This document shows positions 48,844 to 64,000 of a stretch of DNA of 64,000 nt, one piece after another (the stretch's first letter is position 1; the number at the start of each line of letters is the position of its first letter). A program made the translations under genes and the position numbers. The stretch comes from Sphingomonas sp. (GTDB lineage Bacteria > Pseudomonadota > Alphaproteobacteria > Sphingomonadales > Sphingomonadaceae), in assembly GCF_025362505.1 (NCBI RefSeq), contig NZ_JANYGG010000138.1, forward strand, positions 1 through 64,000, read 5' to 3'. The notes beneath the pieces were generated by a model. It was not told the origin of the DNA. It saw only the letters and a list, made by a program, of their open reading frames with translations, and did not search any database.

Positions 48844-49185
48844 TTGAACAAGCTTTTCTACGGCGACAATCTCGGCGTGCTGCGCGACCATATCGCCAGC
48901 GACAGTGTCGACCTGATTTACCTCGATCCCCCGTTCAACTCGAACGCCAATTACAATATACTGTTCAAGTCTAAGACTGGCGACGGATCGGACGCGCAGA
49001 TCGAGGCGTTTGAGGACACTTGGCACTGGAATGAGCATGCCGAGCAAGCCTTCGACGAGGTCGCGCGCAGCGGCAATACCAAGGCGTTCGACCTGTTGAA
49101 CGCGATGCGTGGCTTCCTCGGCGACAATGACATGATGGCCTATCTGGCGATGATGGCGGTGCGCCTGATTGTGGATTGGCGATGA
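48844..49185 (+). pseudogene. truncated DNA methyltransferase (N-terminal fragment)
   Basis: A 113-codon frame beginning TTG directly after the att-like repeat. It opens NKLFYGDNLGVLRDHIASDS and contains the catalytic DPPFNSNANYNILF (DPPY-type motif IV), as in adenine-specific methylases of type III-like restriction systems, which are normally several times longer. Homology ends near MAVRLI and the frame closes four codons later. No restriction subunit or remaining part of the gene follows. Residue of the element integrated at tRNA-Glu; not expected to be active. Confidence 0.75.
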
Positions 49186-50627: not shown

Positions 50628-51545
50628 CTAGCGGCTTGGGCGAAGCACGCCGTCGGTCCCGCGGACGAGCGGTGCCGACTGGCGCGGTAGTGGTGCACCA
50701 GGGGCGGCATCGATCGTCGTCCCATAAGGCCAGGATGGGGGAGCGATCGCCACGAACCGTGCAAGCCCGCCCGTACCGCCCTCGGGTCGGGCAAAGCCGA
50801 TCGAGATCAGCGCACCGGCTTCGGGCACGTGGTCGAGGTTGGTGACCCCCTCGGCCTGAGCGAAGTCGTGGCCGAGCAGCCAGCGCTCGGCCACGAAATC
50901 GTCGGTCGTGTCGGTGTCAAGTGGTTCGTGGCCATGGAACAGGATGTGGCGGTCAAGGTGAAGCAGCTTGAGCGCATCGAGCGAAATGCCCGGGAACGGC
51001 CGGCGAGTGAAGCGCTCGGGGTCGTTCCATCGCTTCGACCAGTCGGTCCGGAACATGACCACCGATCCCGCCGGGATCCGGCCGTGGCGCTGCTCCCAGC
51101 CAAGCACGTCGGCGACGCTTGCGACATGACCAGGATCGGCGCGGGTCGCGGCCGAGAGGTCAATGACGACCAGCGGGCGGACGGCGATCGTCGCGGGAAA
51201 ATCGCTGATCGTGGCGCCAAGGGGATTGCCGTGGGCCGGGGGATCAAGCTGAGTTCCGACCTGGTCCGTCGGCAGCTGGTAGGCGGTAATTCCGGCGCCG
51301 TGGCGGGCGTAGCCGAAAGGCTCTCCCCTGCCGATGAACCCGGGGACGTCGATCGCCGCGCGTGCCGCCGACACCGACAACCGGCCGAAGCCCGCCCACT
51401 TTGGATCGCCCGGTGCGAAGGCGTGGGTGAGGTCGATATATTTGGCGTGGGCGAAGTTCGCTTCATAAGCCGGCCAAAGACTTGCGGGGCGCGATGTCAC
51501 GCACCCCGCCAGCGCGAGCAAGGCGAGCGGGACGAGCCGGCGCAT
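50628..51545 (-). CDS. secreted cyclase-family (KFase-like) lipoprotein with altered metal site
   Basis: A 305-residue protein of the kynurenine-formamidase/isatin-hydrolase (cyclase) family with a lipoprotein signal, MRRLVPLALLALAGC, lipobox Cys15. The family motif H-x-G-T-H-x-D-x3-H reads Q95-V-G-T-Q99-L-D101-P-P-A-H105: two metal ligands are Gln. Other family blocks are intact (MFRTDWSKRWNDPERFTRRP, HLDRHILFHGHEPLDTD). Some cyclase homologues have GTQ-x-D in place of GTH-x-D, so activity is not excluded. It follows the class V PLP gene by two bases, implying a joint function, yet acts outside the cytoplasm. Confidence 0.8.
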   Translation of the reverse strand: MRRLVPLALLALAGCVTSRPASLWPAYEANFAHAKYIDLTHAFAPGDPKWAGFGRLSVSAARAAIDVPGFIGRGEPFGYARHGAGITAYQLPTDQVGTQLDPPAHGNPLGATISDFPATIAVRPLVVIDLSAATRADPGHVASVADVLGWEQRHGRIPAGSVVMFRTDWSKRWNDPERFTRRPFPGISLDALKLLHLDRHILFHGHEPLDTDTTDDFVAERWLLGHDFAQAEGVTNLDHVPEAGALISIGFARPEGGTGGLARFVAIAPPSWPYGTTIDAAPGAPLPRQSAPLVRGTDGVLRPSR

Positions 51546-51547
51546 CG

Positions 51548-52711
51548 TCAGAGCATCAGCGCGCGGTGGCACCCGATCGCGTGGAACACTCGCTCGACAT
51601 CGCCCTCCTCGTTGTAGAAGTGCGGCGAGAGGCGGACATTGCCGTCACGCGAGGAGGTAACGATGTTCGCCTCGTGCAGCGCAGCCACCATTGCCGGAGC
51701 ATCGTGCGAGCGCAGGGCGACCATCGCCCCGCGCCGCGTCGGCTCATCGGGCGTCGCCATCGGGATTCCGGCGGCGTGAGCGTGGTTGGCGATCGAGGCC
51801 GTTAGGCCGGCAATCCGTTCGCCAATCGCGGCAAGCCCGATCTCCTCGACGATTGCAAGGCCGGCGCGGGCGGCATAGACATTGGGGATCGGCGGGGTTC
51901 CGCCCTCGAATCGCCGCGCGCTGGCAGCAGGATGATGCGCGCGGGCATCCATTGCGCCGATGTCCTCCTGCGCGAACCAGCCGGTGGCGGTCGGCTGGAG
52001 CGCTGCAGTGGTGGCGCTGCGCGCGTAGAGAAAGGCGACGCCGGCCGAGGAGAGGAGATATTTGAGCGTCCCGCCGACGTAAAAATCGCAGTCCAGGGTA
52101 GTCATGTCGATTGGCATGGTACCGATAGCCTGGAACCCGTCGATCAGAACATGAGCGCCCTTCGCCCGGGCAAGCTGCGCGATCGCGGCGACGTCGAGCT
52201 TCTCGCCGTTGCGGTAACAGACGTGGGTCACGGCGACGATCCGCGTGCGTTCGTCGATGACGTCCGCGAGCCGCTCGAGCAAGCTGGTGTTGCCGTTGGC
52301 GACGACCCGTTCAACCGTCGCTCCGCGCGCTTCCTGCGCATACCAGATTTGCGCGTTGGTCGGAAACTCGAGGTCGGTGATGACGACCTTGTCGCGGTCC
52401 TGGTCGAAGGTCATCGCCGAGGCGACGGCGTTGATCCCGGCCGAGGCCGAACCGGTCACGGCAATTTCATCGGCGGTGCATCCGAGCAGTCGCGCGACAT
52501 CGCCGCGCAGGGCTTCATAGCGACCGATCCATGCGTCCCAATGGCTACCATGGGCGTGGCGATCGGCGAGATATTCAAGATAGGCGGCCTCGACCGAGTC
52601 CGACAGCAAGCCATAGGAACAGCTGTTCATGAAGCATTGACGGCGAAGCAGCGGGAAGCGCGCGCGCAGGGCGTTCCAGTCGGGGGCGATGGCAACGGTT
52701 GAGTCGGTCAT
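51548..52711 (-). CDS. class V aminotransferase-fold PLP enzyme
   Basis: A 387-residue PLP enzyme of the NifS/kynureninase/isopenicillin-N-epimerase group. Visible blocks: CFMNSCSYGLLSDSVEAAYL, substrate region GSASAGINAVASAMTFDQDR, HVCYRNGEKLDVAAIAQLAR, the Asp of HVLIDGFQAIGTMPIDMTTL, and PLP lysine in DFYVGGTLKYLLSSAGVAFL. Lengths and motifs fit a C-C or C-N lyase or racemase as well as a transaminase; kynureninase is plausible given the aromatic context but its specific residues are not certain. ATG 52711 with AGGCAGGAA. Divergent from the TonB receptor; palindrome ATTCACGTGAAT lies 45 bases upstream. Confidence 0.85.
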   Translation of the reverse strand: MTDSTVAIAPDWNALRARFPLLRRQCFMNSCSYGLLSDSVEAAYLEYLADRHAHGSHWDAWIGRYEALRGDVARLLGCTADEIAVTGSASAGINAVASAMTFDQDRDKVVITDLEFPTNAQIWYAQEARGATVERVVANGNTSLLERLADVIDERTRIVAVTHVCYRNGEKLDVAAIAQLARAKGAHVLIDGFQAIGTMPIDMTTLDCDFYVGGTLKYLLSSAGVAFLYARSATTAALQPTATGWFAQEDIGAMDARAHHPAASARRFEGGTPPIPNVYAARAGLAIVEEIGLAAIGERIAGLTASIANHAHAAGIPMATPDEPTRRGAMVALRSHDAPAMVAALHEANIVTSSRDGNVRLSPHFYNEEGDVERVFHAIGCHRALML

Positions 52712-52767: not shown

Positions 52768-52973
52768 ATGTGATCTAAAAGCAACAGGCCGTCGCAGTTT
52801 CACGAATATAGCAGTCGTCCGCGTTCCCGCTAGATGTTTTAGGTTGAAAATAAATTTCATCCAGTCATGTTTTGCCATGACGATCGTCGGCACTGGCCTG
52901 CGATCGTTCAACGGCCGACGGCATGGCGTCATGCTTGTCGGGGGATCGAGCCAATGTTCGACAAGGGGGACTT

Positions 52974-55331
52974 ATGACCGACCTGCGCAAGGGACTATTC
53001 GCAACGACCGCAGGGCTGGTGCTCGCGGCACTTACCCAGCCGGCGCTGGCTCAGCCCGCGTCGGGTCCCGAAGTCCCGGCACCCGCCCGCCCGGCGCCGG
53101 GCGACCAAGCGACCGGTGCCCCGGTCACCTCGACCTCCAAGCCCGACGAGAATTCAATTCCCGACATCATCGTCACGGCAACCAAGCGTGGCGACGAGGC
53201 GTTGCGCAACGTGCCGATCGCGATCCAGGCGTTGACCGGCGACACGCTCGCCAAGGCCGGCATTACTCAGTTTAGCGAATATGCCGGGCGCGTGCCGAGC
53301 CTGTCGTTCCAGGACCTCGGGCCTGGCGACAAGAAATATGTCATCCGCGGTGTTAACTCGACCGGCGCTGCGACCGTCGGCGCCTATTACGACGAAGCGG
53401 TGATCAGCGCCGATAATCGCAACGACGGCGGCGGTCGCAACGTCGATCTCAAGCTGTACGACATCGCCCGCATTGAAGTCCTCAAGGGGCCGCAGGGAAC
53501 ACTTTATGGCGCCTCGTCGGAATCGGGCACGATCCGCATCATCACCAACAAGCCCAACAGCCGCGAGTTCAGCGGCTATCTCGCCGGCGAACTGTCGCAG
53601 ACCCGCAAGGGCGGCACCAACTATAACCTCAACGGCATGGTCAACCTGCCGCTGGCAACCGACAAGCTGGCGCTGCGGCTGGTCGGCTGGCGAGTCGACG
53701 ACAGCGGTTATATTGACCAGATCCGCCTCCCCGCAGGGCGCAGGAACGACGTCAACAATGACGACACCTGGGGCGGCCGCGCGAGCCTGCGCTTCACGCC
53801 GACCAACCAATTGTCGGTTACTGCTTCGGCGACGTACCAGAAGACCCATTCCAACGGCTCGTCGCGCTACACGCCCGCTGGGACCCAGAGCTTTTCGACC
53901 GTCGGCTATCCGCCGGTGGCGGGTGGCGACCTGCTCAACACCGACCTGTCGCGCAGTCCGCTCGACGACAAGGTCAAGATCTTCAGTCTGACCGGCGAAT
54001 ATAATTTCGATCACGGCAGCATCGTCGCGACAACCAACTATTTCGACCGCAGCTTCCTTTTCAATTTCGACAGCTCGCCGATTCTGTTTTATTTTGGCGT
54101 GCCGATCTCAGGCATCACCATCCAACCGCAGTCGCGCAAGATCTGGTCGAACGAGCTGCGCTATGCGTCCAAGTTCGACGGCCCGCTGAACTTCGTGGTC
54201 GGCGGCTTCTACAGCAAGGAAAAATCGAACTTCGACGTTCAGGTTGTCAAGATCAACGCGTTCGGCGACCCCGCTGGACCGTTTAGTGGCCTCAACGCCG
54301 ACGACGCTCTGTCGAACCCCAACGGCAACACTTTCTTTGGCCGCTACGACAACAACCGCCTCAACCAGTATGCCGCGTTCGGCGAGGCGACCTTTGCCTT
54401 TACCCCGACCGTCAAGGCGACCATCGGCGCTCGCTATTTCCACTCGAAGCTCAGTTCGGTTCAGGAGACAACTCACCCGTTCGGCGGTTTTGGGCCCAAC
54501 CCGCCTGGGGTGCTGCGCAATGAGGCAAGCGACCATAAGACGACCTTCAAGGGGAACGTTAGCTGGAAGCCGAGTGAGCAGATATTGCTCTATGTGACCG
54601 CCGCGCAGGGTTTTCGTACTGGCGGTCTGAATCAGGCCGACTTGCCCTTCTCGTCGTTCATCCCACGCAGCTACGGCTCGGATTCGCTGTGGAATTACGA
54701 AGTCGGGACCAAGCTGACGCTGCTCGGCGGCAAGCTGCGGCTTGACGCTGCGGCATATCGCATTGACTGGTCGAACATCCAGGTCGGCGCGGTCGATGCC
54801 ACCGGCGCCTTCCCCTTTACAACTAATGCCGGGACCGCGAAGGTCGACGGCGTCGAGGCCGACCTGAACGCGCTGCTGGCGCGCGGCGTGACGCTGGAAG
54901 TGGGCGGTTCATACCAGAACGCCCGGCTCACCTCGGACCAGCCAGGAGCGACGCCACGACCGATCACCCTTGGCTTAAGCGGCGACCGGCTGCCCAACGT
55001 GCCGCGCTTCAACAGCAGCGTGAACCTCGACGTCGACCGGCCGATTAGCGAGCGCTGGAACTACCAGCTCCACGGCGATGTCACCTATCGCGGAAGTTCC
55101 GACACCAAGCTGCGCCGCAGCATCGACCCGAACAATGTCCATCTGGCGAGCTATAGCTTGGTCAACCTGCGCGCGGGCGTCAGCGACCGGGTGTGGACCG
55201 TCACCGCGTTCGTCCGTAACCTGTTCGACAAACGGGCGCAGGTCGATGCCATCTTCTCGTCGCAGGACCCGCTCGCCTATATCACTGTCCGACCGCGGAC
55301 GATTGGTATCGGCGCCGCTCGCAAATTCTGA
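52974..55331 (+). CDS. TonB-dependent outer-membrane receptor
   Basis: A 785-residue outer-membrane channel with an N-terminal signal (GLFATTAGLVLAALTQPALA). The mature region starts with a disordered Pro/Ala stretch, then IIVTATKRGDEALRNVPIAI (TonB-box/plug start, 65-84), plug signatures VIRGVNSTGAA and RIEVLKGPQGTLYGASSESG, and 20-odd beta strands ending with the family terminal Phe (IGIGAARKF). It belongs to the broad sphingomonad TonB receptor group and probably imports an aromatic or other catabolic substrate, not iron. ATG 52974 after GGGGGA. Followed 10 bases on by the CDGSH-cupin gene. Confidence 0.93.
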   Translation: MTDLRKGLFATTAGLVLAALTQPALAQPASGPEVPAPARPAPGDQATGAPVTSTSKPDENSIPDIIVTATKRGDEALRNVPIAIQALTGDTLAKAGITQFSEYAGRVPSLSFQDLGPGDKKYVIRGVNSTGAATVGAYYDEAVISADNRNDGGGRNVDLKLYDIARIEVLKGPQGTLYGASSESGTIRIITNKPNSREFSGYLAGELSQTRKGGTNYNLNGMVNLPLATDKLALRLVGWRVDDSGYIDQIRLPAGRRNDVNNDDTWGGRASLRFTPTNQLSVTASATYQKTHSNGSSRYTPAGTQSFSTVGYPPVAGGDLLNTDLSRSPLDDKVKIFSLTGEYNFDHGSIVATTNYFDRSFLFNFDSSPILFYFGVPISGITIQPQSRKIWSNELRYASKFDGPLNFVVGGFYSKEKSNFDVQVVKINAFGDPAGPFSGLNADDALSNPNGNTFFGRYDNNRLNQYAAFGEATFAFTPTVKATIGARYFHSKLSSVQETTHPFGGFGPNPPGVLRNEASDHKTTFKGNVSWKPSEQILLYVTAAQGFRTGGLNQADLPFSSFIPRSYGSDSLWNYEVGTKLTLLGGKLRLDAAAYRIDWSNIQVGAVDATGAFPFTTNAGTAKVDGVEADLNALLARGVTLEVGGSYQNARLTSDQPGATPRPITLGLSGDRLPNVPRFNSSVNLDVDRPISERWNYQLHGDVTYRGSSDTKLRRSIDPNNVHLASYSLVNLRAGVSDRVWTVTAFVRNLFDKRAQVDAIFSSQDPLAYITVRPRTIGIGAARKF

Positions 55332-56476: not shown

Positions 56477-57985
56477 TCAGGCTGCACGCGGCACCGCGGC
56501 CTGGCCAAGATCGGCGATGGCGCGGGTTAGTGCACGGCCCTCGTCGTCCTTGAGCGCGGCCTCGCGCAGGGTCTGCACGAGCGCCGCCGAACCGGGCCGT
56601 TCAACAAGTTGGGGCAGGCTGCGCATGATCATTGCGAAGTTATGGAGTCCGCGCGCGTGGGTGTCGCCATAGCCTTTGACCAGCCGCTGGCAGCGGATGA
56701 TCTCAACCGCCAGCTGATGATCCGTCCGGCACGCGTTCAGGGCCGAGGTGAGCCACCCGATGATACGATCCTGTTCAAGCCGGTAGCGAAGCGTTCCACG
56801 ACGCCAGCGGCGCAGCCGGGCAATGCCGTGGAGCAGGAGAAATCCACTAATGCGCGAGGTGGTGATAGTCCGGTCGCGTTCGAGCAGCGGCGCGATCAGA
56901 CGCCGGCTGCGATCCGAGGCAAGTAACCGTTCGCCGACCCGCCACGGCAGCGTGTCGCATAGTTCCTCAAAACGAGGGTGCATATATTCGGTGACGTCGA
57001 CGATGTGTTCGGGTTGCCCGCGGGCCTCGACCAACACGCGCGCCAGGCGGCTGCCGCGGGTCTTGAGGTCGGCAACGCGGATGACGTCTTCATAGGACAT
57101 CCACAAGGCCAGGTAGCGGGCGGCTTCGCGGGTCAGGGTCCAGTCAGGATCGGGCGACAGCTGGCGCTCGGCATCAGCGACGGCCGACAGTCGGTCGAGA
57201 TAAAGCGAGGCATAGGCGGCATCCTGGTAATCAGCGAGCCGCTCGATGCCGATCGTCGCGGTCGGCCAGGCCGCCTCTGGCAGGCGCTGGGCAAGGATGG
57301 TGCGCAGGTGCGAAAGCCCGGTCAGCACTACCGGCGGCGGTGCCGCATCCTCCCGCTCGACCGGGGCAAGCGCTCGGTCGAAGGCGGCGGCGAAGGTTCG
57401 CAAGCTTGAATTGACCCCAACCCCGCCGGCGCGAATGGCATCCTCGAACGCCGCGCGCGGAAATGGCAGCGCGCCCGATCCGGCGAGGGCACCGAACAGC
57501 GCCGCGCTGATCACGCTGCCATCACGCTCGGCGAGCGCCTGATAGTCGGCGAGGACCAGCCGCCGCGCCGCCATCCGGCAAGCGTCGAGAATCCTCACCG
57601 GACTGGTGATGCCGTCGCCCATTGCCGATTTCTCGGCGATGGCGAAGATGCGGTGGCTCGACGCGATCAACGTGGTCCGGTCGGGCGTCACGAGGCCACG
57701 GGCGATCGCCCGACCGGCTTCCATCAGTTCGGCGGCGACGACGATGTCGACATCGCCCGGGACCGGCATCAGTGCCTGGACCGGCAAGCGGCCGGCGGCG
57801 TCGGGCGGGCAGAATTCTAGATAATAGACGGTCGCCCCGGTGCGCTGGGCAACCCCCGGAACTGAGGTCGCCTGAACGAGCCAACCGCAGGAATCGGCGG
57901 TGGCGACGAGCCAGTCGGCGAGCACGCCTCCTCCCTGCCCGCCGAGCGCGTTGATCGACAGGCGGATCGGCGACGCCTCGCTCAT
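56477..57985 (-). CDS. iorB: indolepyruvate ferredoxin oxidoreductase-type beta subunit
   Basis: A 502-residue subunit. The first 190 residues are the pyruvate-ferredoxin-oxidoreductase gamma-like domain: INALGGQGGGVLADWLVATA, TSVPGVAQRTGATVYYLEF, and DIVVAAELMEAGRAIARGLV. The rest is the long helical C-terminal extension found in proteobacterial IorB-like proteins (DUF6537 type), including a MHPRFEELCDTLPWRVGERL region. The start codon overlaps the iorA stop (ATGA). It works with IorA to oxidise an aryl-2-oxoacid to the acyl-CoA; in this cluster isatinate is my preferred substrate. Confidence 0.85.
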   Translation of the reverse strand: MSEASPIRLSINALGGQGGGVLADWLVATADSCGWLVQATSVPGVAQRTGATVYYLEFCPPDAAGRLPVQALMPVPGDVDIVVAAELMEAGRAIARGLVTPDRTTLIASSHRIFAIAEKSAMGDGITSPVRILDACRMAARRLVLADYQALAERDGSVISAALFGALAGSGALPFPRAAFEDAIRAGGVGVNSSLRTFAAAFDRALAPVEREDAAPPPVVLTGLSHLRTILAQRLPEAAWPTATIGIERLADYQDAAYASLYLDRLSAVADAERQLSPDPDWTLTREAARYLALWMSYEDVIRVADLKTRGSRLARVLVEARGQPEHIVDVTEYMHPRFEELCDTLPWRVGERLLASDRSRRLIAPLLERDRTITTSRISGFLLLHGIARLRRWRRGTLRYRLEQDRIIGWLTSALNACRTDHQLAVEIIRCQRLVKGYGDTHARGLHNFAMIMRSLPQLVERPGSAALVQTLREAALKDDEGRALTRAIADLGQAAVPRAA

Positions 57986-60105
57986 GCCATCCTCGCCTGC
58001 CGACGCCGCTCGCTGCCAGTCTGGAGCCAGCTGATGAGCCTCGCTGAAGTGCGGTGGCGAAGCCGGTCGAACCGCGAGGGATTGTGGACGATGTCGGCGC
58101 GGAAGAAGCTCGGGCAGAGCACCGCGGCGTGCGCGATCTCCCCGCACACGCCGCATCCAACGCAATCATTGTTGACCGCTGCGACCGGGTCCTCGCGCAA
58201 TGGGTCGGGGTTGGGCTTGACGGTCAGCGACGGACAACCCGACAGTCGGATGCAGCTATGGTCGCCCGTGCACAAATCCTCGTCGACTCCGAAGCGCTGC
58301 TTGACCATCCGCTTGCCCTGCTTGACTGCCTTGGCGAATAACGGCTTTTCGCGGCGTTGGCGGTTGAGCATGCATTCCGACTGGGCGATGATCACCTTGG
58401 GCCCAAAATGCTTGGTCAGCATCGCTTCCTTGAGCGTGCCTTTCATCTTCTTGAGGTCGTAAGTACGGACGGTCCGCACCCAGTCGACCCCGACCCCGCG
58501 CACCGCCCGCTCGATCTCGTGGCCGGTGCTGCGGACAGTGTTCTCGGCCCGCGATGAAAGCAGGTCCTGCCCGCCGGTTGCGGCCGAATAATCATTGTCG
58601 ACGATGACCAGCACATTGTCGTTCTTGTTGAACACCGCATTGCCGACGCCACTGGTCAGACCGTTGTGCCAGAACCCACCGTCGCCCATCACGCTGATTG
58701 TCCGCCGCGCCGAATCCTTGACGTTGAACGCCGACGCGCCGGCCCAGCCAAGGCCGTAGCCCATGGTCGTATTGCCGATGTTGAACGGCGGCAGGATCGA
58801 GAAAAGGTGGCAGCCGATGTCGCATGACACGTGGATCGGCCCGAGCTCCTGCTGCAGCAGTTTCATCGCGGTGAACACCGGCCGTTCGGGACAGCCGGTG
58901 CAGAAGCCCGCCGGGCGCTGGGGGACGTCGGCAATGGCGATCGACGCGGGCGGGCGCGAAGATGGCGGCACACGACCGATCGCGTGGCTAAGGAAATCGG
59001 CCAGAGCATCGCCGATCACCTGCCCGGTGTATTCTCCCGCGCGCGGGAAGGCATCCTTACCCGACAGCTTCGCCGCGACTCCGCGCTGGCGCAGGATGAA
59101 GGCGATCGCCTGCTCGATATATTCCGGCTGGCCTTCCTCGATCACCAGCACCGCGCGCTTGTCGTTGCAAAATGCGGCAATCTCGTCGTCGACCAGCGGA
59201 TAGGTCACGTTAAGCACGTGGATCGGGATCTGGGTTTCGCCATAGCGGTCGGCCAGTCCGGCAAGTTCCAGCGCACGGATAAGGCCGTTGTACATCCCGC
59301 CCTGAACGATGATGCCAAGGTCGGGATGCAGTGCGCCGGGAAAGGTCTCGTTGAGCCCATGCCTGACGATATAGTCGATCGCAGCGGGCCAGCGGGTGGC
59401 AATCTTCTCCTGCTCATGGGCGAAATTGGCGGGCGGCAGGACGATCCGGTTGGTATCACGAACCGGTGCATCCATCGCCTCCTTGAGCGACATCGCCGAG
59501 CGGCGGTTGTCCTTGGCCTCGAACCGGCCGTGGAGGTGGCAGGCCCGAATGCGCAGTTCGAGCATCACCGGCGTGTTCGACGCTTCGGACAGGGCGAAGC
59601 CATGCTCGACCATGTCGACGATCATCGGCAGATTGGGCCGCGGATCGAGCAGCCAGATTTGCGACTTCATCGCGAAGGCGTGGCTTCGCTCCTGCATGAT
59701 CGACGAGCCTTCGCCATAATCCTCGCCGACGATGATCAGCGCGCCACCGGTCACCCCGCCACTGGCGACATTGGCGAGCGCATCGGATGCGACATTGGTG
59801 CCGACGGTCGATTTCCACGTTACCGCGCCGCGCAGTGGATAGTTGACCGACGCCGCGAGCATTGCTGCGGCGGACGCTTCCGACGCCGACTGCTCGAAGT
59901 GGACGCCAAGTTCCATCAGCAGCGGGTTAGCGTCTGCGAAGACGTCCATCAGATGGCTGATTGGGGCCCCTTGATAACCGCCGACATAGGCCACGCCCGA
60001 CTGCAGCAAGGCTTTGGTGACAGCAAGGATCCCTTCACCGTGAAAGGTCTCGCCCGCACCAAGGCGAAGCGACTCGACCTCTTTCGCGAAGGAGCGCTCG
60101 GCCAT
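57982..60105 (-). CDS. iorA: indolepyruvate ferredoxin oxidoreductase-type alpha subunit
   Basis: A 707-residue thiamine-diphosphate 2-oxoacid oxidoreductase. N-terminal PYR domain GVAYVGGYQGAPISHLMDVF and EQSASEASAAAMLAASVNYP; TPP-binding domain GDGGFWHNGLTSGVGNAVFN with NDNVLVIVDNDYSAATGGQD. The C-terminus carries two [4Fe-4S] ligand sets, CTGDHSCIRLSGC and CVGCGVCGEIAHAAVLCP. Canonical enzymes convert indole-3-pyruvate to indoleacetyl-CoA; 2-aminophenylglyoxylate (isatinate) is also an aryl-2-oxoacid and would give 2-aminobenzoyl-CoA. Starts one base after the hydrolase stop; forms the operon hydrolase-iorA-iorB. Confidence 0.9.
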   Translation of the reverse strand: MAERSFAKEVESLRLGAGETFHGEGILAVTKALLQSGVAYVGGYQGAPISHLMDVFADANPLLMELGVHFEQSASEASAAAMLAASVNYPLRGAVTWKSTVGTNVASDALANVASGGVTGGALIIVGEDYGEGSSIMQERSHAFAMKSQIWLLDPRPNLPMIVDMVEHGFALSEASNTPVMLELRIRACHLHGRFEAKDNRRSAMSLKEAMDAPVRDTNRIVLPPANFAHEQEKIATRWPAAIDYIVRHGLNETFPGALHPDLGIIVQGGMYNGLIRALELAGLADRYGETQIPIHVLNVTYPLVDDEIAAFCNDKRAVLVIEEGQPEYIEQAIAFILRQRGVAAKLSGKDAFPRAGEYTGQVIGDALADFLSHAIGRVPPSSRPPASIAIADVPQRPAGFCTGCPERPVFTAMKLLQQELGPIHVSCDIGCHLFSILPPFNIGNTTMGYGLGWAGASAFNVKDSARRTISVMGDGGFWHNGLTSGVGNAVFNKNDNVLVIVDNDYSAATGGQDLLSSRAENTVRSTGHEIERAVRGVGVDWVRTVRTYDLKKMKGTLKEAMLTKHFGPKVIIAQSECMLNRQRREKPLFAKAVKQGKRMVKQRFGVDEDLCTGDHSCIRLSGCPSLTVKPNPDPLREDPVAAVNNDCVGCGVCGEIAHAAVLCPSFFRADIVHNPSRFDRLRHRTSARLISWLQTGSERRRQARMA

Positions 60106-60106
60106 G

Positions 60107-60895
60107 TCAGGCGGGGACCAGCGCCAGCACGCGCAGCGGACTGCCAGAGCCGCGTACGATTTTGAGCGGCGGGGCGATAACGATCGCGCCCGTCGGCGGA
60201 AGCTGGTCGAGATTGGTAAGGCTGGCCAGTCCGAACTTGTTAGCGCCATGCATCAGCGTGTGGCAGGGATAGGCAGGATCGAGAGCGAACGCCTGGCCGG
60301 CGTCGGTGCCCACTGTCTCGACCCCAACCCCGCGCACCTTGCGTTGTTCGGCGAGGAACGGGATGGTCGCCGGGTGCCAGCCGGGGGTGTGGGCACCGTC
60401 CTCGGCAAAATTGAGAAACTCCTTGGGGTCTGTGCGCTTCGACCAGTCGGTCCGGAACAGCACCCAAGCGCCCTCGGGGATCTGGCCGTGGCGCTTCTCC
60501 CACTGCTCGACATAATCGACGGTCACGAGGAAATCGGGATTCGCGGCTGCCTCGGCCGAGGCATCAATCACGCAGGCCGGACCGATGAAGCGCTCGACCG
60601 GGATCGTATCGGTCGCGTTGTTCTCGTGATCCTTGCCGGTGATGAAGTGAATCGGCGCATCGAAATGGGTCCCGGTATGCTCGCCGCACTTGAACCAGTT
60701 CCAGTACCAGGCAGGTCCGCGCTCGTCATATTCGGACAGGACCTCGATCTCGAACGGCGGGTTCTGGACGAATTCGGCGGGCAACTGGAGCACCGGCGTG
60801 GCGGGCTCGAGGGGCTGGGTGAGATCGACCACCTTGATCGCGCCGGAGACGAGCGCGAGCGCCAGTCCATTGAGTAGATCGCCGCCGTCGGTCAC
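60107..60895 (-). CDS. isatin-hydrolase-like cyclase-family amidohydrolase
   Basis: A 262-residue cytoplasmic metal hydrolase of the kynurenine-formamidase fold. The metal motif is intact: H73-T-G-T-H77-F-D79-A-P-I-H83, followed by FITGKDHENNATDTIPVERF. Further family blocks: GAWVLFRTDWSKRTDPKEFL, PGWHPATIPFLAEQR and HTLMHGANKFGLASL. The signature and length fit isatin hydrolases (isatin to isatinate) at least as well as kynurenine formamidases. The aryl-2-oxoacid oxidoreductase next in the operon and the 2-aminobenzoyl-CoA-type oxygenase favour isatin. GTG start 60895 with AAAGGAG. Divergent from marR. Confidence 0.8.
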   Translation of the reverse strand: MTDGGDLLNGLALALVSGAIKVVDLTQPLEPATPVLQLPAEFVQNPPFEIEVLSEYDERGPAWYWNWFKCGEHTGTHFDAPIHFITGKDHENNATDTIPVERFIGPACVIDASAEAAANPDFLVTVDYVEQWEKRHGQIPEGAWVLFRTDWSKRTDPKEFLNFAEDGAHTPGWHPATIPFLAEQRKVRGVGVETVGTDAGQAFALDPAYPCHTLMHGANKFGLASLTNLDQLPPTGAIVIAPPLKIVRGSGSPLRVLALVPA

Positions 60896-60935
60896 ACGCC
60901 ATTCTCCTTTAAATGATGTCTCGCCAAGCTGCCCG

Positions 60936-60962
60936 AATTACGTGAATTGTCAAGTGATGACA
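60936..60962. promoter_or_regulatory. candidate MarR operator in the divergent promoter
   Basis: Two adjoining inverted repeats in the 87-base gap between the hydrolase and marR: AATTACGTGAATT (60936-60948) and TGTCA-N5-TGACA (60948-60962). The first shares ACGTGAAT with the palindrome at 52756-52767. MarR proteins usually bind such palindromes next to their own gene and repress both directions. Confidence 0.5.
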
Positions 60963-60982
60963 GCGGCTGCACGGAGGACTAG

Positions 60983-61474
60983 ATGGAAGCGATGCCCTCC
61001 AAGCGCGACGCCCTTCATCGAGCCGACCCGGCCGGTCCGAACTTCAAGCTGGCCGACTCGCCGCTATATTGGCTCGCGCGGGTAGCGGGGCGCTACCGGC
61101 TCGACATGGACATGGTATTGAAGCCGATCGGGATGGATGTGCCGCGCTGGCGTGTTCTCGCGATCCTGACCGAGCATGAGCCGGCAAGCGTGACCGAACT
61201 GTGTGACCACGCCGTCATTCGCCTGTCGACGATGACCCGGATCGTCCAGCGCCTGGCCGACAGCGGGCTGGTCAGCACTCGACCGCGCGACTCGGACGGG
61301 CGGGTGACCGAGGTCAGGCTAACCGTCGCCGGACGCGACGCTGCCGTGAGCGTCCATGCGCAGGCGAGTAGGATCTTTTACCACGGCTTCGACGGCTTCT
61401 CCGCGGCAGAAGTTGCAGCCCTTAACGGCATGCTGCAGCGATTGTTTACGAATTTCGGACTGCCGCCACGCTGA
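60983..61474 (+). CDS. MarR-family transcriptional regulator
   Basis: A 163-residue winged-helix regulator. Dimerisation helices flank a DNA-binding domain: WRVLAILTEHEPASVTELCD, recognition helix IRLSTMTRIVQRLADSGLVS, and wing RPRDSDGRVTEVRLTVAGRD. ATG 60983 after CACGGAGGA. It is divergent from the hydrolase-iorAB operon, which it most likely represses until a catabolic intermediate (isatin, isatinate or an aryl-CoA) binds. MarR regulators of indole-acetate degradation loci are known in other proteobacteria. Its 3' end overlaps the convergent monooxygenase gene by 29 bases. Confidence 0.92.
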   Translation: MEAMPSKRDALHRADPAGPNFKLADSPLYWLARVAGRYRLDMDMVLKPIGMDVPRWRVLAILTEHEPASVTELCDHAVIRLSTMTRIVQRLADSGLVSTRPRDSDGRVTEVRLTVAGRDAAVSVHAQASRIFYHGFDGFSAAEVAALNGMLQRLFTNFGLPPR

Positions 61475-63818
61475 CCGCATCCGTGTGCTTATGGCGTGGG
61501 GATTTAGCCTTCTGCTGGAGGTCCGCCTGCTTCGCGCGCGTCTTGGCGGTTTCGCGCATCAATTGCGCGGCGCCCGACAGATAGGGTTTTGGCACGGCGA
61601 CGGCGCGGGTGGCGTACCAGGCCGCGGCGCGCAGCGCGAAATTGGGGTCGGTCAGGTGGACGCGACCGAGCGCCACCAGATCAGCGCGGCGACAGGCGAT
61701 GATCGTGTTGACTTGGCCTGGCTCGGTGATCGCGCCGACGCACAGGGTGCGAATGCCGACCTCGTTGCGGACGGTCTCGGAGAAGGGCACCTGATACATC
61801 CGGCCATAGACCGGCGACTGGTCGGGAACGGTCTGGCCCGATGACAGGCTGATAAGGTCGCAGCCGGCGTCCTTGAAGGCGCGCGCGATGGCGACGAGGT
61901 CGTCCTCGCCAAGCCCGCCCTCCCGCCAGTCGGTGGCAGACAGGCGGACCGACATCGGCTTGGCCTGTGGCCAAACGGCGCGCATCGCGGCAAACAACTC
62001 AAGCGGAAACCGCAAGCGGTTGTCGATCGATCCGCCAAATTCGTCCGATCGCTGATTGGTCAGCGGCGATAGGAAGCTGGCGACGAGATAGCCGTGCGCG
62101 GCGTGAAGCTCGAGCAAATCGAAGCCGGCACAATCGGCGCGTCGCGTTGCCGCCACGAAGTCGGCGACGATGGCGTTCATCCCCGCCCGGTCCAGTTCGG
62201 CTGGCGCCTGGCTTTCACCCGGCAGCCATGGCAAGTTTGAAGCAGATACGATCGGCCAGTTAAGTGCGGGGTCGGCGATCGGATGGTCCGCGGCCTCCCA
62301 GCCGAGCTGGGTCGACGCCTTGCGCCCGGCGTGACCGAGCTGAACCGCGAGCTTCGCGCCGCTGTTGGCCTTGGCGAAATCGACAATCCGTTTCCACGCC
62401 GCTTCCTGCGTTTCGTTCCACAGCCCGGGACAACCCAGCGTGATCCGCGCTTCGGGCGACGTGCAGGTCATTTCGACATACAACAAGCCCGCGCCGCCCA
62501 CGGCACGGGCGCCATAATGCATCAGGTGCCAATCGCCCGGCACGCCGTCGGTCGCGAGATATTGCGCCATTGGCGCGACGACGACGCGGTTAGGGATGGT
62601 CAGACCGCGCAGCTTCAATGGCGTGAACATCGGTGTCGGACGCTCGGCGGCAACGTCGATCCCGGTCTCGGCGGCATAATTTCGGTAAAAATCATCCTCG
62701 ACCGCGGCGAGAAAGGCCGGGTCGCGCAGCTCTAGATTGTCCCAAGTGATCGACTTAGCGCGCGACATGACCATCATCGCGAACTGCTGCGGCGGCATGT
62801 CCCACGAACACGCGACATGCTCGAACCAAGCGAGCGACACGGCGGCGTTGTGCTGGGTGATCTCGATCGCAGTCGCACGGTTCTCCCGATAGGCATCAAA
62901 CGCAGCCGGCACGTCGTGCTCATGCTCGACCAGGGCATCGGCCAGCGCGATCGCGCTTTCCATCGCCAGCTTGGTGCCCGACCCGATCGAGAAATGAGCA
63001 GTCGCCATAGCATCACCGAGCAGCACGATACGGCCGTGGGTCCAGCGCCGGCAGCTAATCCGCGGAAAGTTTCGCCACAGCGATCGGTTGACGAGCAATG
63101 GATGACCTTCGAGATCCTCAGCGAAGATCGCCTCGAGCGCTCGCGCCGCCTGCCGCTCGTCCATCGTGTCGAAGCCATTACCGGCCCAACACTCGGGCGT
63201 TGTCTCGATCACCCAGGTCGAATGATCGCGGTCATACTGATAGCAGTGGGCGACGATGATGCCGTGCGGCGTCTCGCGGAAGAAATAGGTGAAGTCGCTC
63301 AAAGGACGGGTCGAACCCATCCAGGTGAACTTATTGCGGGTCGGGCTTATCACCGGCTCGAACGCCGCGGCGTAGGCGTCACGGATGCGGCTGTTGGTGC
63401 CGTCGGCGGCAACGATCACGTCGGACTGGGCAAAACGCTGTTCGATCGTCGCCGGGTCGATCGATACTCCATAGTGGCTTTCGACCCCGACCGCATCGGC
63501 GCGGGCCTGCAGGATTTGAAGTAACTTCAGCCGGGCGCAACCAGCGAAACCATTACCGCCGCAATGGATGTCGTGGCCCTTGTAGCGGATGCGGATGTCG
63601 TCCCAATAGGCGAAGGCATCGGCGATCATCGCGTAGGATTCTGGATCTCGGCTGAGGAATTCGCCCAGCGTCTCGTCCGAGAAGACGACACCGAAGCCGA
63701 ACGTGTCGTCGGCCTGATTCTGCTCGAACAGCTCGACCTGCCAATCGGGCCGCACCTTCTTGACGAGGATGCCGAGGTAGAGACCCCCGGGGCCGCTGCC
63801 GATGATGCTGATCCGCAA
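61446..63818 (-). CDS. FAD monooxygenase / Old Yellow Enzyme fusion, 2-aminobenzoyl-CoA monooxygenase/reductase type
   Basis: A 790-residue bifunctional flavoprotein. Residues 1-395 are a class A flavin hydroxylase: GSGPGG at 7-12, later VIVAADGTNSRIRDAY, and GDAMATAHFSIGSGTKLAME. From about 405 to 775 is an OYE/YqjM-type reductase: PMFTPLKLRGLTIPNRVVVA, AVQLGHAGRKASTQLGW, and ELHAAHGYLVASFLSPLTNQ. This architecture is that of Aromatoleum (Azoarcus) evansii 2-aminobenzoyl-CoA monooxygenase/reductase and related salicylyl-CoA 5-hydroxylases. The former hydroxylates and reductively dearomatises 2-aminobenzoyl-CoA. Start TTG 63818, with GAGGAA six bases upstream, gives the conventional N-terminus; TTG 63857 is less likely. 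Confidence 0.9.
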   Translation of the reverse strand: MRISIIGSGPGGLYLGILVKKVRPDWQVELFEQNQADDTFGFGVVFSDETLGEFLSRDPESYAMIADAFAYWDDIRIRYKGHDIHCGGNGFAGCARLKLLQILQARADAVGVESHYGVSIDPATIEQRFAQSDVIVAADGTNSRIRDAYAAAFEPVISPTRNKFTWMGSTRPLSDFTYFFRETPHGIIVAHCYQYDRDHSTWVIETTPECWAGNGFDTMDERQAARALEAIFAEDLEGHPLLVNRSLWRNFPRISCRRWTHGRIVLLGDAMATAHFSIGSGTKLAMESAIALADALVEHEHDVPAAFDAYRENRATAIEITQHNAAVSLAWFEHVACSWDMPPQQFAMMVMSRAKSITWDNLELRDPAFLAAVEDDFYRNYAAETGIDVAAERPTPMFTPLKLRGLTIPNRVVVAPMAQYLATDGVPGDWHLMHYGARAVGGAGLLYVEMTCTSPEARITLGCPGLWNETQEAAWKRIVDFAKANSGAKLAVQLGHAGRKASTQLGWEAADHPIADPALNWPIVSASNLPWLPGESQAPAELDRAGMNAIVADFVAATRRADCAGFDLLELHAAHGYLVASFLSPLTNQRSDEFGGSIDNRLRFPLELFAAMRAVWPQAKPMSVRLSATDWREGGLGEDDLVAIARAFKDAGCDLISLSSGQTVPDQSPVYGRMYQVPFSETVRNEVGIRTLCVGAITEPGQVNTIIACRRADLVALGRVHLTDPNFALRAAAWYATRAVAVPKPYLSGAAQLMRETAKTRAKQADLQQKAKSPRHKHTDAVSVAAVRNS

Positions 63819-63896: not shown

Positions 63897-64000
63897 TCAG
63901 AAGTCGACGCTCTGGCCGATGCCTCGTTCCCGCGCGCGCTGGTTGACGAGATAGGCTGCAGCGAGGTCTTGCGCGGCAATGCCGAGCGATTTGTAGAGCG
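63897..64000 (-). CDS. ornithine cyclodeaminase/mu-crystallin family protein, C-terminal fragment
   Basis: Only the last 34 residues are inside the window; the gene continues past 64000. The visible tail LYKSLGIAAQDLAAAYLVNQ then RARERGIGQSVDF is typical of the C-terminus of the family (YKSLG-x2-x2-DLAAA helix). Members are NAD(P)-dependent imine reductases or cyclodeaminases. It is 78 bases upstream of the monooxygenase on the same strand, so likely the same operon; it might reduce an imine or enamine intermediate formed from the amino group of the dearomatised ring (speculative). Confidence 0.72.
   Translation of the reverse strand, partial: LYKSLGIAAQDLAAAYLVNQRARERGIGQSVDF

Follow-up and report, generated by a model that had tools for sequence, protein, structure and literature searches.

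Isatin hydrolase and IorAB as a candidate module from isatin to 2-aminobenzoyl-CoA in a Sphingomonas sp. and its relatives

Isatin arises when indole and plant auxin are degraded, and a locus in Sphingomonas sp. raises the question of whether it can be carried to 2-aminobenzoyl-CoA by a route that needs neither free anthranilate nor a CoA ligase. The DNA analysed (the window) comprises the first 64,000 bases of the 81,199-base contig NZ_JANYGG010000138.1; in it, genes for a putative isatin hydrolase (IH) and an IorA/IorB pair (IorAB) lie near a gene of the 2-aminobenzoyl-CoA monooxygenase/reductase (ACMR) type, arranged as follows.

56477–57985, minus strand: IorB-like subunit with a POR domain and DUF6537 (NF006179, 654.9 bits, cut-off 348)
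57982–60105, minus strand: IorA-like thiamine-dependent 2-oxoacid oxidoreductase, large subunit, with two Fe-S motifs
60107–60895, minus strand: putative isatin hydrolase of the cyclase family, GTG start (from open reading frame, Pfam, solved-structure match and motif comparison)
60939–60963, minus strand: candidate operator/promoter between the MarR and IH genes, a TGTCA-N5-TGACA inverted repeat over a TTGACA box
60983–61474, plus strand: MarR-family regulator, divergent from the predicted IH-IorA-IorB operon
61446–63818, minus strand: fused FAD monooxygenase/old yellow enzyme (OYE), ACMR type (NF006101, 1017.4 bits, cut-off 1078)

We hold with moderate confidence that the IH-IorAB module converts isatinate to 2-aminobenzoyl-CoA, which feeds ACMR. 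The basis of this reading is gene content, motifs, co-occurrence and linkage, from which we infer the IorAB reaction and its acceptor, the substrates of ACMR and of a ligase described below, and the source of isatin. The IH-IorA-IorB operon, under its divergent MarR regulator, would form a two-step module: IH would open the isatin ring to give isatinate (2-aminophenylglyoxylate), and IorAB would produce 2-aminobenzoyl-CoA from isatinate by oxidative decarboxylation, using CoA and an electron acceptor that is probably ferredoxin. ACMR and a beta-oxidation/RidA gene set would then dearomatise and degrade this thioester. In Sphingomonas sp. this thioester is probably also made by the ligase from free anthranilate (derived from kynurenine, for example), while in many relatives IorAB would be the only dedicated source of 2-aminobenzoyl-CoA recognised. 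IorAB would work like phenylglyoxylate:acceptor oxidoreductase (aryl-glyoxylate + CoA to aryl-CoA + CO2), an enzyme of anaerobic phenylalanine breakdown that has more subunits than IorAB, the comparison being one of reaction type.

The product of 60107–60895 is very likely an isatin hydrolase. It belongs to the Cyclase family (PF04199), matches the solved isatin hydrolases 5nmp (E = 3e-106) and 4j0n (E = 2.1e-89), and carries the HxxxHxD metal site as HTGTHFDAPIH, together with the WxW/FxW and GLQC/GLAS pocket motifs, which appear in the translation as WYWNW and GLAS; motifs of these types have been linked to isatin hydrolases (PMC6117287). The intact metal site had been recognised in the first-pass annotation, as had the coupling of the three genes, and both descriptions hold: IH, IorA and IorB are co-directional open frames, with a 1-base gap between the first two and a 4-base overlap between the last two, and we read them as one operon. 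The interval assigned to the pathway at that stage, 57982–63818, contains real genes but leaves IorB outside on its left and does not name the MarR gene that sits between IH and ACMR. The 25-base block upstream of IH is identical in another IH locus (L005) and nearly so in a third (L006), and its inverted repeat is perfect, making it a possible MarR operator.

IorA, a TPP_enzyme_C protein searched with the query 57982–60102 (first Met left off), has in alignment an intact thiamine site, GDGGFWHNG...DN, where we take GDG...N to be the thiamine-binding motif. Its first Fe-S motif is CTGDHSC, with Asp in all 60 sequences compared at the place where a second Cys is usual, a substitution that may bear on oxygen tolerance. 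IorA misses the cut-off of the IOR_alpha equivalog TIGR03336 (292.2 vs 650.9 bits), while IorB clears that of the ‘indolepyruvate oxidoreductase subunit beta family’. These scores pull in opposite directions on a quite unlikely alternative, that IorAB acts upstream or in parallel on another aryl-2-oxoacid (e.g. indolepyruvate to indoleacetyl-CoA) and that the clustering reflects common tryptophan-derived compounds. A TDO-family gene elsewhere in the genome suits this alternative, and so do six IorAB loci that adjoin a TRAP-type importer without IH (identified by hidden Markov model, HMM, in one of the six), which suggest that the wider IorAB family has other substrates and to that extent count against our proposal. 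Speaking for isatinate instead, IH and IorAB are kept together amid differing upstream genes, indole-monooxygenase modules included.

The ACMR candidate (FAD_binding_3 + Oxidored_FMN) aligns to NF006101 over residues 1–765, which confirms the FAD monooxygenase/OYE fusion noticed in the first-pass annotation. It scores below the curated cut-off of this model, which is named for salicylyl-CoA 5-hydroxylase/oxidoreductase, so that the substrate is undecided by it; a RidA gene and an anthranilate-CoA-ligase homologue nearby favour an amino substrate over salicylyl-CoA, RidA within the operon would suit such a substrate, and ACMR is likely the enzyme downstream of IH-IorAB. Both neighbours lie past the window, where the contig encodes, in order, an OCD/mu-crystallin protein, a second kynureninase-like enzyme, a PALP enzyme and an amino-acid permease, followed by a same-strand run at 68515–73899 of SDR, MarR, enoyl-CoA hydratase, acyl-CoA dehydrogenase, RidA and acyl-CoA ligase genes. 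The ligase gene (72277–73899), last in this beta-oxidation/RidA operon and 8.5 kb beyond ACMR, has as its product's nearest solved structure 4wv3, ‘Anthranilate-CoA ligase’ (E = 1.3e-79), and scores 348.3 bits against the benz_CoA_lig model (cut-off 375.25). With it, the abm-type set of ACMR, ligase, beta-oxidation genes and RidA, a gene list that we take to be that of the Azoarcus cluster, is complete over 61446–73899, and the Sphingomonas sp. genome can probably also activate free anthranilate.

The locus thus resembles the 2-aminobenzoate CoA pathway of Azoarcus evansii and Arthrobacter in its ACMR, ligase homologue, enoyl-CoA hydratase, acyl-CoA dehydrogenase, SDR and RidA, and differs from it by a second entry made up of isatin hydrolase and IorAB, which in many relatives are found where one would look for a ligase. 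The ligase-ACMR route has been described (PMC3534580; PMC6221969), and two Arthrobacter anthranilate-CoA ligases have been shown to be active (PMC3534580). The first-pass annotation had drawn support for a bypass of anthranilate from the lack of a ligase. While the window indeed contains none, the homologue on the same contig removes this support, and inferring a bypass from a missing ligase was rejected in this genome's case, where the homologue weighs against our proposal. A dedicated ligase just outside the window, which the same annotation had counted as refuting its idea, is present in this form; we regard it as not decisive against the IorAB step because a single genome may reach the same thioester by two entries, and that of Sphingomonas sp. 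carries a TDO-family gene as well. What sustains the direct step is instead co-occurrence and ligase-free relatives.

A scan with IH over one genome per species returned 61 loci, of which 50 went on to closer comparison, the search covering 49 of the corresponding genomes. ACMR occurs in all 49 genomes other than the window's own (partial matches in G017 and G048) and IorA in 49 of 50, the window's included, whereas a close ligase (≥47% identity) occurs in only 19 of 50, again including the window's; at E ≤ 1e-75 the tally is 20, the extra genome being G024 at 40%. IorA is present in all 31 genomes lacking a close ligase and lies within 15 kb of ACMR in 24 of them. Across the set, IorA is this close to ACMR in 29/50, the ligase in 9/50 and both in 2/50, and the ligase is absent from 24 of the 29 genomes with IorA-ACMR linkage vs 7 of the 21 without (p = 5e-4, kinship uncorrected). 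The sole genome without IorA, that of Kordiimonas sediminis, has a ligase near IH and ACMR. The ligase-free genomes include the isolates Caulobacter sp. S45 and Marinobacter orientalis W62 (26/26 candidates scored in each), Rhodothalassium salexigens (29/31) and Aquabacterium soli (29/36), and also a Sphingomonas bin (L006) with a cluster like that in the window. One record titled Klebsiella pneumoniae (L047) has an IorA almost identical to the one in an uncultured gammaproteobacterium (L049), and is perhaps a mislabelled bin.

Several features of this set weigh on the other side. It is uneven, with 11/49 records titled Robiginitomaculum, and by lineage (labels assigned in this analysis) 16/33 lack the ligase in every member; lineage-level absence goes with IorA-ACMR linkage (12/16 vs 5/17, p = 0.011). 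Moreover, 18 of the 61 IH loci have no IorA in the stretch examined, some stretches being short, and neither do three of the four plasmid loci; the fourth, from Novosphingobium sp. KACC 22771, has IH, IorA and IorB in a row.

We also sampled 385 genomes of the window's class, its own included, that were not chosen by IH. ACMR was found in 70, IorA in 58 and IH in 13, the last counted at ≥50% identity (E ≤ 1e-30 would give 30, but 17 of these are cyclases of ≤43% and were not counted). IH is accompanied by IorA in 13/13 genomes (p = 6e-12) and by ACMR in 12/13 (p = 6e-9), and ACMR and IorA occur together in 40 (p = 1e-21; all Fisher one-sided, kinship uncorrected). Co-occurrence of IH, IorAB and ACMR beyond chance, for which the first-pass annotation had advised a search, is therefore supported in this sample as well.

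The ligase behaves differently here. It usually accompanies ACMR, in 62 of the 69 genomes other than the window's own (64 at E ≤ 1e-75, two of 38% and 41% identity being set aside), and 10 of the 12 class genomes with both ACMR and IH, own included, carry it. Nor is its absence tied, among ACMR genomes of the sample, to IorA (4/40 with vs 3/30 without), to IH (2/12 vs 5/58) or to IorA-ACMR linkage (1/3 vs 6/66, p = 0.28); the three genomes with neither ligase nor IorA are 64%, 78% and 99% complete. These counts, which tell against our proposal, suit a classical route in which isatinate loses CO2, spontaneously or through another enzyme, to give free anthranilate, which a ligase converts to 2-aminobenzoyl-CoA for ACMR while IorAB is otherwise employed. 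The ligase in the beta-oxidation operon of the same contig and the anthranilate reported as end product of auxin degradation through iad loci (PMC9613470; PMC12633357) point the same way. We nevertheless consider this route unlikely: it leaves the IH-IorAB linkage unexplained, as well as the 31 IH genomes that have ACMR and IorA without a close ligase, where a more distant ligase could still serve. Position is informative too, in that the ligase lies within 15 kb of ACMR in 36 and IorA in 3 of the 69 class genomes, never both. With the two sets pooled, both are ACMR neighbours in 2/118 genomes vs 11.8 expected, a count that mixes an IH-selected with an unselected set and in which one of the two is the window itself; ligase and IorA rarely coexist as neighbours of ACMR.

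The gene order of IH and IorAB takes at least three forms among the loci where they recur together, an indication that they share a function. In the IorA tree (midpoint root only), a single 52-row group with support 100/100 holds all 44 copies from IH loci along with 8 copies without IH nearby; 8 further copies lie outside, and 13 positions distinguish the IH-locus copies from these. Two loci without IH (L099, L100) combine an IorAB from outside this group with a kynureninase-family gene, RidA, SDR, acyl-CoA dehydrogenase and ACMR, the ligase lying far away. The genes next to IH vary. Six loci (L030, L041, L051, L053, L054, L059) place StyA-type monooxygenase, flavin reductase and SDR genes beside it, five of them with an AndR-like regulator and four with an IorA within the stretch examined (one member of each neighbour family was identified by HMM); in Marinobacter orientalis (L030), StyA, flavin reductase, ACMR, IH and IorAB occupy about 14 kb. 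Azospirillum L125 has a similar set with IH and no IorAB in its 25 kb. Several Hyphomicrobiales IH loci carry an ABC importer, a luciferase-like monooxygenase, an FAD oxidase and an HpcH aldolase. The StyA-type trio resembles the iif/WHOP indole clusters, whose published routes to anthranilate use other enzymes (PMC12538310). None of the three was seen in the window, and a StyA-type indole module was not found in the Sphingomonas sp. genome, where no StyA domain matched; the control was also silent, so that absence cannot be concluded. We read IH-IorAB as an exchangeable module from isatin to 2-aminobenzoyl-CoA whose upstream modules vary.

The iad loci of Variovorax and Bradyrhizobium share iorA/iorB and a MarR regulator with the Sphingomonas locus. 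There, iorA/iorB (iadA/iadB) are exclusive markers, control is by MarR, and isatin and isatinic acid are intermediates (PMC9613470). Two iad-like operons carry an IH about 59% alike to that of the window: L111, with IH, SDR/OB, thiolase, AMP ligase, Rieske beta and alpha, reductase, IorB and IorA, and Sulfitobacter L126, with no IorAB in its 25 kb. Unlike these loci, the Sphingomonas contig has no IadDE-like ring-hydroxylating oxygenase: none of the 13 Rieske-alpha matches in the genome lies on it, and the best match to the L111 oxygenase reaches 36% over half the length, no IadDE orthologue being found in the genome. An iad locus in the window was rejected on this ground; extending past position 64,000, as the first-pass annotation had suggested, thus yielded the anticipated beta-oxidation genes but no such oxygenase. 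A Variovorax iad-locus deletion regained anthranilate with iadC-K2 alone (PMC12633357), by which IorAB seems unneeded for anthranilate formation there. A compound C8H7NO3, whose formula by our reading matches isatinate, accumulates strongly only in strains overexpressing iadC-K2, and the main text of that paper, in the part available, does not mention iadA/iadB (PMC12633357). Provided that iadAB are missing from that deletion strain, as would follow from the gene names, IorAB would suit the part of a missing consumer of isatinate; equally, the result shows anthranilate arising without IorAB, a point against our proposal. In the portion of the literature covered, we found no step assigned to IorA/IorB in auxin loci and no proposal that IorAB converts isatinate to 2-aminobenzoyl-CoA, most subscription journals being outside that coverage.

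No isatin-forming gene was recognised in the Sphingomonas sp. genome. Genes to the left of IorB include the following (PLP, pyridoxal phosphate).

50628–51572, minus strand: second cyclase-family protein, lipoprotein-like N-terminus (by eye), 33% identity to IH
51548–52711, minus strand: kynureninase-like PLP enzyme (class V) that may supply isatin or anthranilate
52968–55331, plus strand: TonB-dependent receptor; neighbourhood shared with L006, relatives in L015, L017 and L023
55339–56397, plus strand: CDGSH + cupin protein; neighbourhood shared with L006, relatives in L015, L017 and L023

The PLP enzyme and the second kynureninase-like enzyme on the contig (64895–66058; L003:4895–6058) have relatives at IH loci L005, L006, L015, L017, L019 and L027. 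Together with the amino-acid permease and the TDO-family gene, they raise the prospect that kynureninase-like enzymes yield anthranilate, which the ligase activates and ACMR degrades, IH and IorAB merely clearing toxic isatin as a by-product. We judge this very improbable, since both enzymes fall under the kynureninase cut-off (about 89 and 99 vs 246 bits) and the ligase-free relatives would go unexplained. At the far end of the contig, Y2-type transposase and rve integrase genes lie just beyond the ligase (74477–75795; L003:14477–15795), for which reason the catabolic stretch (~49.5–74 kb) may have been acquired as an island. The mobile genes are followed by a gene of the tryptophan-halogenase family and one for a GH3 glycosidase (L003:15929–19402), and near the opposite end a short frame resembling part of a DNA methylase (48844–49182) had no Pfam match.

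More tentatively still, IH-IorAB could be a general isatin node, fed by indole monooxygenase, by the auxin iad operon and, in sphingomonads, by the kynureninase-like enzyme, and delivering 2-aminobenzoyl-CoA to ACMR with need of neither free anthranilate nor an ATP-driven ligase; the PLP enzyme might then release isatin and alanine from dioxindolyl-alanine, an oxidised form of tryptophan. Such a node, if real, would supply a missing function for iadA/iadB of plant-associated auxin degraders. If isatinate is indeed the substrate of IorAB, the module would provide an ATP-free, probably ferredoxin-linked entry to the 2-aminobenzoyl-CoA pathway, explain how ACMR is fed in genomes without a close ligase, and give iorA/iorB, marker genes of iad auxin-degradation loci, a testable role; indole degradation via isatin would shift from a free-acid to a CoA-thioester route.

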